63,193 nt of DNA. It comes from Candidatus Saccharimonadota bacterium. Its GTDB lineage: Bacteria; Patescibacteriota; Saccharimonadia; Saccharimonadales; UBA4665. The DNA lies in assembly GCA_018062785.1 (NCBI GenBank), contig JAGORO010000005.1:1-63193 (forward strand). The letters run 5' to 3'. The notes beneath the pieces were generated by a model, which was not told the origin of the DNA, searched no databases, and saw nothing but the letters and a program-made list of their open reading frames with translations. Below are positions 26,799-30,256 of this stretch, piece by piece (position 1 is the first letter of the stretch; every line of letters starts with the position of its first letter). The position numbers were made by a program, and so were the translations under genes.

Positions 26799-27020
26799 AT
26801 GGCATTTACGACAACCCAGAAGCTTATCAAGATCGGCTCAAGTAGGGGTGTAATTCTCCCTGCTAGGGAACTTAAGCAACTAGAGATTAGCGGAGATGAT
26901 GAGCTAGAGATAATTGTGCGCAAGAAAAGTGGCGCAAGCTCGAACGAAGAAGTACTTGCTGCTGCCGAAGGTATCATGCACAAGTACCGCGAAGCCTTTC
27001 AGAATCTGGCCGATCGATGA
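26799..27020 (+). CDS. AbrB/MazE-type antitoxin
   Basis: 73 residues. The pattern QKLIKIGSSRGVILPARELK and then GDDELEIIV is the swapped-hairpin AbrB/MazE DNA-binding domain (about residues 7-50). The C-terminal 25 residues would wrap and neutralise the toxin. It overlaps the Doc-like gene by 4 nt (ATGA), as usual for toxin-antitoxin pairs, and has its own inverted-repeat operator upstream. Probably leaderless. Confidence 0.88.
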   Translation: MAFTTTQKLIKIGSSRGVILPARELKQLEISGDDELEIIVRKKSGASSNEEVLAAAEGIMHKYREAFQNLADR

Positions 27021-27412
27021 ACTTCAAAACCATAGATATTGAGCAGTTGCTTATGCTTCACTCGCTCGTACTGGCGAAAACAGGTGGTGGCGATGGTGCC
27101 CGCGATGTCGGGCGTCTAGAATCAGCCGTCGCGACGCAAACCCAAGAAGTGTTTGGGAGCGAGCTATATAGCACAATATTCGAAAAAGCCGCTGCGGTCG
27201 GCAGGGGGATCGTAGCCGATCACCCGTTTGTCGACGGAAATAAACGGACGGCCATGCTTGCCGCGCTTACCATCCTAGGCGTCAATGACTACGAGCTCAT
27301 CGCGACCAATAAACAGCTAGAAGACTTTGCAGTCCAAGCAGCCGTCGACCACCTAGAAGTGGCCGACATCACCACTTGGCTCAAGGCACATTCCCAGCCA
27401 AAAATAGCCTAG
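27017..27412 (+). CDS. doc: Doc/Fic-family toxin
   Basis: 131 residues. The Fic motif reads HPFVDGNKRTA near residues 69-79, matching Doc (HxFxDANKRTA), which phosphorylates EF-Tu. A Doc-type partner upstream is an AbrB/MazE-like antitoxin instead of the usual Phd, a known alternative pairing. Its start codon overlaps the antitoxin stop. The gene ends one base before the end of a convergent cysteine-rich peptide gene. Confidence 0.9.
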   Translation: MNFKTIDIEQLLMLHSLVLAKTGGGDGARDVGRLESAVATQTQEVFGSELYSTIFEKAAAVGRGIVADHPFVDGNKRTAMLAALTILGVNDYELIATNKQLEDFAVQAAVDHLEVADITTWLKAHSQPKIA

Positions 27413-27481
27413 CTAGTTACACTTGCAGCCGTCGGTGCAGGTGCAGCACTGGCAGCAGTTGCAGGTTTTGTCTGAATCCAT
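27413..27481 (-). CDS. 22-residue cysteine-rich, metallothionein-like peptide
   Basis: Eight of the 22 residues are Cys, at positions 7, 9, 10, 12, 13, 15, 19 and 21, in C-x-C-C-x-C-C-x-C patterns; the rest are small or polar, with Asp and Lys. This resembles a metallothionein domain or other soft-metal-binding peptide. A strong ribosome site (AAGGAGGG) sits 7 nt before the ATG, and TACAAT lies 24 nt further up on the same strand, supporting expression. The frame also continues upstream as a longer open frame antisense to polA, which I take as accidental. Confidence 0.6.
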   Translation of the reverse strand: MDSDKTCNCCQCCTCTDGCKCN

Positions 27482-27607
27482 ACGCAAACCCTCCTTACTA
27501 TCATTATTGTAGATCCAGGCAGAGATGTTGTCTGTACGGTTTTGTACAAATCTTGTGCAAATATCGAACAAACGCGAGAATAGCGAGCGTGGGGTATAAT
27601 AACAGAT

Positions 27608-30256
27608 ATGGCAAAAGAGGTGCAGCCCAAGCGACTTGTGGTAATCGACGGTAAAAGCGTGTTTTATCGTGGCTACTATGCCATGGGCAGCTTGGCGACC
27701 AAGGACGGTACGCCAACAGGTGGAGTGTTTGGCTTTGCGACAATGGCGCTCGAAGTCATCCGCAAACTCAAGCCCGACTACGTTGCGGTAGCGTGGGATA
27801 AGCCCAAGACCAACATCCGTAAACGGCTCGAAATCTACCCCGAATACAAAGCTGGGCGCAAGCCGGCTCCCCCTGATTTTTATGAACAAATCCCAGTACT
27901 GCACGAGTTGCTCGGTGCCTTTGGCTGGCCACTGTACGAGCTCGACGACTTCGAAGCCGACGACATTATGGGTACGCTCGCTGTGCAGGCACGCGAGCAG
28001 GGGCTCGAGACGCTACTCGTTACCTCCGATATGGATATGCTGCAGCTCGTAAACGGTAACGTCAAGGTCTACGCACTCAAGAAGGGCCTAAGCAATATCG
28101 AGCTGTACTCGCCCGAGAGCTTTACGGCCAAATACCAGATCGATGTCGATCAATTTTTGGACCTCAAGGCACTCAAAGGCGATAGTTCCGATAACATCCC
28201 AGGCGTGCCGGGCATTGGCGAAAAAACCGCCATCCAACTTTTGCTCGAATACAAAACGCTCGACGGTGTCTACGACAATCTCTGGCAGATAAAAGAAAGT
28301 GTGCGCAAAAAACTTGAGGCTGGCAAGGAGCTAGCTTACATGAGCAAAAAACTTGGTGCCATTTGGTGTGACGCGCCGTTGCCGCTCGACCTCAAGAGCA
28401 TGAACGACCATCGCCCTAATCCAGAAAAGATCATGGAGCTACTCCAAAAGCTAGAATTCAAATCGCTGGTACGCCAAGTGCCAAGTATACTGGGTGTAGA
28501 ATTACAGCCACAAGAAGGGCCGCAAGCTTTGCAAGATTTCTCGGGTGGCAAGACTACGTACATCCAAAATCAAGATGAACTAGCAGGGGTAAAATTAGCC
28601 AATGGCGATGAAATAGTAGTGGTGAGCCGCAACGCAGGTATGGCCGGACGCGACCCATTGACGCTTGTTATCTCCAATAAGCCGAGTAGTGTTTATGCCG
28701 TCGACCTCACAAAAGTTTCGCTCGACGAGGCATTTCTGACCCAGCTCGCGGAGTGCAAGCTTGTAGGGTACGACCTAAAGTCGACGTTCAAAATGCTGCT
28801 CGATTTGGGCATGCAAACACTGCCTACTGTCTCGCACGACGTGCTGTTAACATCGTTTGTCGAAAACAGTTTGCGGCGCGATCTCAGTCTGAGTGAGCTT
28901 GGCGGAGACGTTGGCTATGACGGCAGTTCATTTGCAGACCTAAGCACCGAAGAATTCATCGAAAGAGCGGCGCAGATGGTGGCGATCATTCGCGCACTGA
29001 CAGCCGAGCAGCGTGCGCACATCCACGAAACTCCTACGCTCGAGGCTCTTGTACAAGATGTAGATGGCCCGGTTGTGCCGGTGTTGGCTCGCATGGAATA
29101 CGAAGGCATTTTGCTGGATACGACATATCTAAAAGACTTTGCCGAGCAGATAAATGACAAAATATCAGACCTCGAACAAGAAATTTATGGACACGCAGAT
29201 TCGCAGTTTAATATTGCCAGTCCGGCACAACTGGCTGTCGTACTTTTTGAAGATTTGGGGTTGCCAACCCAAGGTATTAAAAAGGGCAAGACTGGCTACA
29301 GTACGGCCGCAAGTGAGCTCGACAAGCTTCGACATGCGCATCCCATCACCGACCTCATTAGTCAGTACCGCGAAGTCACTAAGCTCAAGAATACCTATAT
29401 CGATACTTTGCCGCGGCAGGTCGATGGACATGGCCGAGTACACACCACTTTTAACATGACCGTCGCGCAGACCGGTCGGCTTAGCAGCGAAGGCCCGAAC
29501 CTTCAGAATATTCCAGTCCGAACCGAGCTGGGCAAGCACATCCGAACAGCCTTTGTAGCCGGCAAAGGTCGCAAGCTAGTGAGCGCAGACTACAGTCAGT
29601 TCGAGCTGCGATTGGCAGCAGCAATGAGTGGCGATACCGAAATGATCGATATGTTCAATCGCGGGGCAGATATTCACATGACCACGGCCGCACAAGTGTA
29701 TGGGCGCGAGCAAGAAGACGTAACTAAGCAGATGCGTTCGGCCGCCAAGACAATTAACTTTGGTGTGCTGTACGGCATGAGTCCGCACGGTCTGGCGGCA
29801 GCGACAGGTATGACATTTACGGCCGCCAAGGAATTTATCGATGAATACTTCAAGCTCCGCGCGCCGCTACTGGGCTACCTCGATGGCCTCAAGGAAAAGG
29901 CACGCACCGATGGTTACGTCGAGACACTACTCGGTAGGCGCCGGCCAATGCCAGATATCAAATCGAGCAATTTTATTGTGCGTAGCGCCGCCGAACGTGC
30001 GGCCATGAATATGCCTATTCAGGGTACCGAGGCGGACTTGATGAAGCTGGCAATGGTGGCGGTCGATAAAGAGCTGGGGCAGTTCGAGGGGGCTAAACAG
30101 CTTCTGCAAATTCACGACTCTATATTGGTCGAGTGTGCGGAGGAAGACGCCGAAGCTATTGCTAAAAGTATGCAGCAAACCATGGAGTCGATCTACGAAC
30201 TGCCGGTAGCGCTTGCCGTCGATACATCCATTGGTGATAACTGGGGAGAATTGTAA
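27608..30256 (+). CDS. polA: DNA polymerase I, proofreading residues missing
   Basis: 882 residues. N-terminal 5'-3' exonuclease/FEN domain (VIDGKSVFYRGYYA, then DDFEADDIMGTLA, VTSDMDMLQLV, GDSSDNIPGVPGIGEKTA), a degenerate 3'-5' exonuclease domain lacking the DxE motif, and a full family A polymerase domain (SADYSQFELRLAAAMSGD, RSAAKTINFGVLYGMSPHG, QIHDSILVE). Repairs gaps and removes RNA primers. TATAAT at 27595-27600 ends 7 nt before the ATG: probably leaderless. Its TAA overlaps the next ATG (TAATG). Confidence 0.97.
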   Translation: MAKEVQPKRLVVIDGKSVFYRGYYAMGSLATKDGTPTGGVFGFATMALEVIRKLKPDYVAVAWDKPKTNIRKRLEIYPEYKAGRKPAPPDFYEQIPVLHELLGAFGWPLYELDDFEADDIMGTLAVQAREQGLETLLVTSDMDMLQLVNGNVKVYALKKGLSNIELYSPESFTAKYQIDVDQFLDLKALKGDSSDNIPGVPGIGEKTAIQLLLEYKTLDGVYDNLWQIKESVRKKLEAGKELAYMSKKLGAIWCDAPLPLDLKSMNDHRPNPEKIMELLQKLEFKSLVRQVPSILGVELQPQEGPQALQDFSGGKTTYIQNQDELAGVKLANGDEIVVVSRNAGMAGRDPLTLVISNKPSSVYAVDLTKVSLDEAFLTQLAECKLVGYDLKSTFKMLLDLGMQTLPTVSHDVLLTSFVENSLRRDLSLSELGGDVGYDGSSFADLSTEEFIERAAQMVAIIRALTAEQRAHIHETPTLEALVQDVDGPVVPVLARMEYEGILLDTTYLKDFAEQINDKISDLEQEIYGHADSQFNIASPAQLAVVLFEDLGLPTQGIKKGKTGYSTAASELDKLRHAHPITDLISQYREVTKLKNTYIDTLPRQVDGHGRVHTTFNMTVAQTGRLSSEGPNLQNIPVRTELGKHIRTAFVAGKGRKLVSADYSQFELRLAAAMSGDTEMIDMFNRGADIHMTTAAQVYGREQEDVTKQMRSAAKTINFGVLYGMSPHGLAAATGMTFTAAKEFIDEYFKLRAPLLGYLDGLKEKARTDGYVETLLGRRRPMPDIKSSNFIVRSAAERAAMNMPIQGTEADLMKLAMVAVDKELGQFEGAKQLLQIHDSILVECAEEDAEAIAKSMQQTMESIYELPVALAVDTSIGDNWGEL

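Follow-up and report, generated by a model that had tools for sequence, protein, structure and literature searches.

The window analysed here, a stretch of 63,193 nucleotides from a genome of 862 kb in 22 contigs, contains on its minus strand, from 27481 to 27413, a micro-gene encoding a peptide of 22 aa, MDSDKTCNCCQCCTCTDGCKCN, with ATG at 27481-27479 and TAG at 27415-27413. Its eight cysteines, at positions 7, 9, 10, 12, 13, 15, 19 and 21, follow the spacing CxCCxCCxCxxxCxC and account for more than one-third of the residues. The length and cysteine positions given in an earlier note on this DNA are borne out by the minus-strand translation; the strand was absent from that note, and a plus-strand reading of 27413-27481 yields only LVTLAAVGAGAALAAVAGFV*IH. 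The ribosome site described there also lies at the right distance, as the Shine-Dalgarno sequence AAGGAGGG (27489-27496, minus strand) stands 7 nt before the ATG. A TACAAT box, equally pointed out, is present at 27511-27506 on the minus strand, 24 nt upstream of the ATG, as a possible -10 element, with a weak possible -35 element (CAGACA, 27529-27534, minus strand) 17 nt from it. However, as a promoter match this combination is not above chance, about 0.8 such matches being expected per 1 kb, so that the promoter constitutes no evidence by itself.

An intergenic space of 126 bp (27482-27607) is common to the micro-gene and the divergent polA gene (27608-30256, plus strand; PF00476 by Pfam). 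On its other side, the micro-gene is convergent with a Fic/DOC gene (doc; 27017-27412, plus strand; PF02661 by Pfam), the stops of the two genes abutting each other (27412/27413). An ORF for a MazE-like antitoxin (26799-27020, plus strand; Pfam score under the curated cut-off), of the MazE/AbrB type, overlaps the Fic/DOC gene by 4 bp, the two making up a compact toxin-antitoxin-like pair (26799-27412, plus strand) that polA adjoins. The minus strand below the micro-gene is devoid of genes until 26579. No metal genes adjoin the window copy, and its own genome gave no ArsR-family match and one match to a P-type ATPase. RNA structure at the micro-gene stretch is ordinary (z = 0.46), and an Rfam search of the window returned no match.

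The frame might be a chance ORF, that is, a TGC-rich stretch that happens to lie downstream of a ribosome site: CxCCxCC patterns are often the shadows of CAG/GCA repeats, and the micro-gene is rare among close relatives. However, among the 89 Shine-Dalgarno-led ORFs of up to 40 aa in the window, every other one has at most four cysteines against the eight of the micro-gene, and six was the maximum among the 18,252 ribosome-site-led ORFs of up to 40 aa that arose when the window was simulated 150 times with a first-order Markov model. The cysteine content is far beyond chance. Moreover, the existence of homologues already contradicts a chance origin, since core, tail, ribosome site and stop are all kept in two of them, and a control with altered ribosome sites sets a group of viral peptides apart from repeats (both described below). 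We therefore consider a chance ORF very unlikely, and the micro-gene to be real with high probability.

The two homologues were recovered from other Saccharimonadales genomes through different halves of the sequence. A pattern that fixed only a GGAG ribosome site, an ATG and CxCCxCC found MDTPPTSENSCNCCKCCTCTDGCDCK in genome G597 (UBA1944), whose TCTDGC tail is independent evidence because it lies outside the search pattern. A second pattern, which fixed only CxCxDGCxC, found MNTDNQETPPDSGEVRSCNCCKCCTCNDGCDCK in genome G568; here the CNCCKCC half and the ribosome site are the independent evidence, as neither was fixed. In both genomes, the half that the pattern left free agrees with the other homologue. 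A GGAGG ribosome site precedes both copies. G597 and G568 belong to one genus, in another family of Saccharimonadales than the window. Between the window and G597 copies, 13 of 16 core residues are identical, and the codon differences comprise three synonymous and three nonsynonymous ones; the N-termini of the three copies differ in both length and sequence. A terminator-like hairpin stands behind each homologue, of 14 bp with a T-rich tail in G597 (-19.1 kcal/mol, z -6.3) and with a 12-bp stem and a T-run in G568. The earlier note had named lack of conservation of the frame as grounds for refuting the gene, and had proposed looking in relatives for the cysteine pattern and the ribosome site: the frame, pattern and site all recur in these two genomes. 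Its claim of a real gene is thus well supported by two homologues with conserved non-cysteine residues and synonymous substitutions, and by ribosome sites in all three copies.

The three loci are not syntenic. The window copy sits at polA/doc, whereas the G597 copy and its hairpin are followed on the same strand by a YitT-family gene, with a gene that we take to be 3-methyladenine-glycosylase-like also among its neighbours. The neighbours of the G568 copy include, by Pfam, Nramp (two genes away) and the small chain of ribonucleotide reductase, along with genes that are presumably NYN-like and CYTH-like; the genes after this copy lie on the opposite strand. Such varying neighbours suggest an accessory gene, gained and lost. 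When exact patterns were run on several hundred genomes, from the order and from the family of G597, no additional clear copy emerged beyond these three; as far as such patterns can tell, each detecting one cysteine spacing only, the micro-gene is therefore rare. As a protein query, the 22-mer matched nothing but the window itself among 99 relatives and among the 93 genomes of its family, a pattern with all eight cysteines fixed returned only repeats apart from the window, and orthologous polA neighbourhoods in relatives are without the micro-gene.

Short peptides of similar make-up, such as MSKCKCCECCSCTCCG and MSNEKCKCCECCSCECENCC, were found in uncultured viral contigs by patterns combining AGGA, an ATG and CxCCxCCxC, and by a GGAGG version of these. 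Once these were restricted to peptides of 13-32 aa with a ribosome site and hydrophilic spacers, and one doubly counted locus was removed, there remained at least 31 contigs or loci (some of the contigs being near-duplicates) with at least 24 distinct peptides of 15-26 aa and 8 or 9 cysteines. Because the searches imposed the CxCCxCC core, finding it conserved in phages carries no independent weight, and a control scan in which TCCT replaced AGGA was run for this reason. Among the matches listed, the in-frame short peptides of the control are polycysteine or repeat-like and none resembles the viral group, and hydrophilic spacers occur in 73 of 93 matches with AGGA versus 6 of 54 with TCCT (Fisher p ~4e-16, with redundancy in both sets). 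A large group of look-alikes that changes in character with the ribosome site thus lends further support to the micro-gene being real.

At least six viral loci (L174, L202, L250, L407, L460 and L504), representing four distinct contexts, carry the peptide gene -1 to 11 bp behind an NfuA-like gene. The NfuA make-up of its product, with Fe-S_biosyn and NifU domains, was established by Pfam on the L250 protein, with which the other five cluster; these phage proteins match phrog_18436, a PHROGs family without assigned function. A phrog_455 gene lies upstream of the peptide gene at no fewer than ten loci, either directly or with nfuA between, and where nfuA is missing the micro-gene is still found behind the phrog_455 gene. 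Since the relatives of the phrog_455 type are found mostly in cyanophages, with a few in Methylophilales and Pelagibacter phages, the viral contigs with phrog_455 are probably marine T4-like phages. No Cys-rich small ORF is present in the 7-kb stretches examined of the cultured cyanophages and the Methylophilales phage related through phrog_455, and a protein search with a phage look-alike peptide found no match among cultured phages. The phage and bacterial versions could be convergent. In a further viral contig (L240), a Cys-rich ORF of 24 aa lies 29 bp behind a gene for a PLP-dependent enzyme resembling cysteine synthase.

Matches in contigs of other cellular genomes were in many cases out of frame or repeats. 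Those retained are looser: L309, L332, L344 and L382, tried as exact members of the group, do not fit CxCCxCCxC with hydrophilic spacers and were either treated as look-alikes or set aside. The Verrucomicrobia look-alikes MSEETKSKCGCCGCCECDSNCCCGK and MSEENDGCARSCKCCCCCRCGCQDG lie 57 and 78 bp downstream of ArsR-family genes, an arrangement of an ArsR-family gene and then a Cys-rich ORF of 25 residues that occurs in two species (L332 and L383) and resembles a miniature smtB-smtA. In Candidatus Berkelbacteria (L382), the 28-aa look-alike MSCCCCCKCCKCDECTCCEEDGKEESDK directly follows a DUF134 gene, 1 bp downstream, and the palindrome ATTATGAACATATGTTCATAAT stands upstream of that gene. Finally, the look-alike MSGTENCGPCCCCCCCKCDCSESTSKPGCCRSA of a Thermoplasmata archaeon overlaps by 4 bp an LMWPc gene, of the low-molecular-weight phosphatase family that includes arsenate reductases. 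Peptides of this sort thus adjoin metal or metalloid genes in these organisms, though not in the window.

Metal binding would be the natural reading of the cysteine pattern, and draws indirect support from the ArsR-type, LMWPc and phage NfuA genes that adjoin look-alikes elsewhere. The reading of the earlier note, an expressed metal-binding micro-protein, is thereby supported in part, with storage of copper or zinc and metal defence as candidate roles. From the thiol pattern and these contexts, we propose with a probability of roughly 0.7 that the micro-gene stands alone and encodes a metallothionein-like peptide made on ribosomes, a putative cytosolic chelator of soft metals. The thiols of the CxC and CC motifs would enclose soft metal ions in a small cluster of thiolates. 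Clusters of this kind usually hold Cu(I) or Zn(II)/Cd(II); the candidate metals here would probably be Cu(I), Zn(II) or Cd(II), possibly also As(III), as some look-alike contexts suggest. The peptide might then chelate or buffer metal in the cytosol, and so be an equivalent of phytochelatin encoded by a gene. In infected cells, phages may use these peptides as metal buffers or in the service of Fe-S assembly, a role that we propose because some copies lie directly behind phage nfuA.

The high thiol content is also compatible with a redox or thiol buffer, or with a partner of NfuA-type scaffolds that donates or accepts Fe-S or sulfur, instead of a store of metal. This would accord with the phage copies directly behind nfuA-like genes on several distinct contigs, and with the one behind the cysteine synthase-like enzyme. 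However, most loci lack NfuA, including those of Saccharibacteria, the micro-gene stays behind the phrog_455 gene without nfuA, and the presence of ArsR-type genes beside look-alikes elsewhere speaks for metals or metalloids; we assign this role a low but appreciable probability. The micro-gene might otherwise encode a Cys-rich leader peptide or uORF, where a gene downstream would respond to translation of the cysteine codons or to metal bound by the growing peptide, through cysteine attenuation or in the manner of Bordetella CruR. The cysteine codons do stand in tandem, the G597 succession of micro-gene, hairpin and YitT-family gene is attenuator-like, and copper-sensing uORFs exist: CruR, a copper-responsive uORF of the DUF2946 family, senses copper through cysteines, is 145 aa long and predicted to be exported, carries CXXC and RAPP motifs, and is the first gene of a copper-regulated operon (PMC9426467). 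Like CruR, the window peptide is a small, cysteine-containing bacterial protein, but it shows none of its hallmarks (DUF2946, CXXC, RAPP), and the window copy leads no operon; it can in fact lead nothing, because the next gene, doc, is convergent and the minus strand holds no gene down to 26579. The strand of the genes after the G568 copy likewise speaks against a leader, so that G597 alone would allow one, while most phage copies lie directly behind a gene, with varying content downstream. In addition, the T-C-x-D-G-C-x-C tail, which is kept, would be superfluous in a mere counter of cysteine codons. A leader-peptide role is therefore unlikely.

The abutting stops of the micro-gene and doc might also suggest a third part of the MazE-like/Doc toxin-antitoxin pair, or else the precursor of an antimicrobial or modified peptide. 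Both are barely plausible: the micro-gene and doc lie on opposite strands, the homologues adjoin YitT/DNA-glycosylase or Nramp/NYN/ribonucleotide-reductase genes and no toxin genes, and a leader sequence is not visible.

The metallothionein-like reading was also compared with known families. MDSDKTCNCCQCCTCTDGCKCN has the features by which metallothioneins are broadly recognised, being very small, Cys-dense and rich in CxC/CC motifs. Pfam gave no family for the 22-mer at E values up to 10, and NCBIfam, PHROGs and the PDB gave no match, all of these searches having low power for such short chains. Phytochelatins, which are likewise short, rich in thiols and of about this size, are synthesised enzymatically from glutathione; unlike them, the window peptide is encoded by a gene with its own ribosome site. 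SmtA-type proteins are longer than 22 residues, and SmtA is under the control of SmtB, an ArsR-family repressor. The Verrucomicrobia look-alikes, which also follow ArsR-family genes, recall in this respect SmtA and BmtA, the cytosolic Cys-rich chelators of Synechococcus and Pseudomonas. However, the SmtA type includes His residues as well as a part folded as a zinc finger (PMC10612145), whereas MDSDKTCNCCQCCTCTDGCKCN has no His, is without a Pfam match and, at 22 residues, is too short for the zinc-finger fold. The fungal Cu-thioneins of Neurospora crassa and Agaricus bisporus (family 8), with 26 aa and 7 cysteines, were once held to be the shortest metallothioneins (PMC4755600). MDSDKTCNCCQCCTCTDGCKCN resembles them in being very short and Cys-dense with CxC motifs, but departs from the family 8 pattern X2-CXC-X5-CXC-X3-CXC-X2-C-X3 in having CC pairs and eight cysteines within 22 aa, and in being bacterial. 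The peptide would thus be read as working like a metallothionein and as a member of no defined metallothionein family among those tested.

More tentatively, such peptides could form an unrecognised class of gene-encoded micro-metallothioneins of phytochelatin size (8-9 cysteines in 15-26 residues), lying below annotation limits and carried by uncultured phages, marine T4-like ones and others, as well as by some Saccharibacteria and by microbes scattered elsewhere; phages might use them as auxiliary genes to control soft metals or Fe-S assembly while infecting. No descriptions of bacterial or phage micro-metallothioneins were found in open-access papers, subscription journals being outside the scope of the search. 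Bacterial and phage peptides of 15-22 residues, with eight cysteines and a ribosome site each, would be smaller still than the fungal copper-thioneins. If metal binding is true, control of metals by thiol peptides would be more widespread than annotation suggests, phages included, and such peptides would be easy to test because they can be synthesised directly.

Apart from these micro-genes, genome G589 (L508, match at about 1501-1527) encodes, behind a strong ribosome site, a glycine-zipper protein of 96 aa that combines a membrane-like N-terminal part with a CDCCDGCKCC cluster and may possibly represent a membrane-anchored relative of the same idea.
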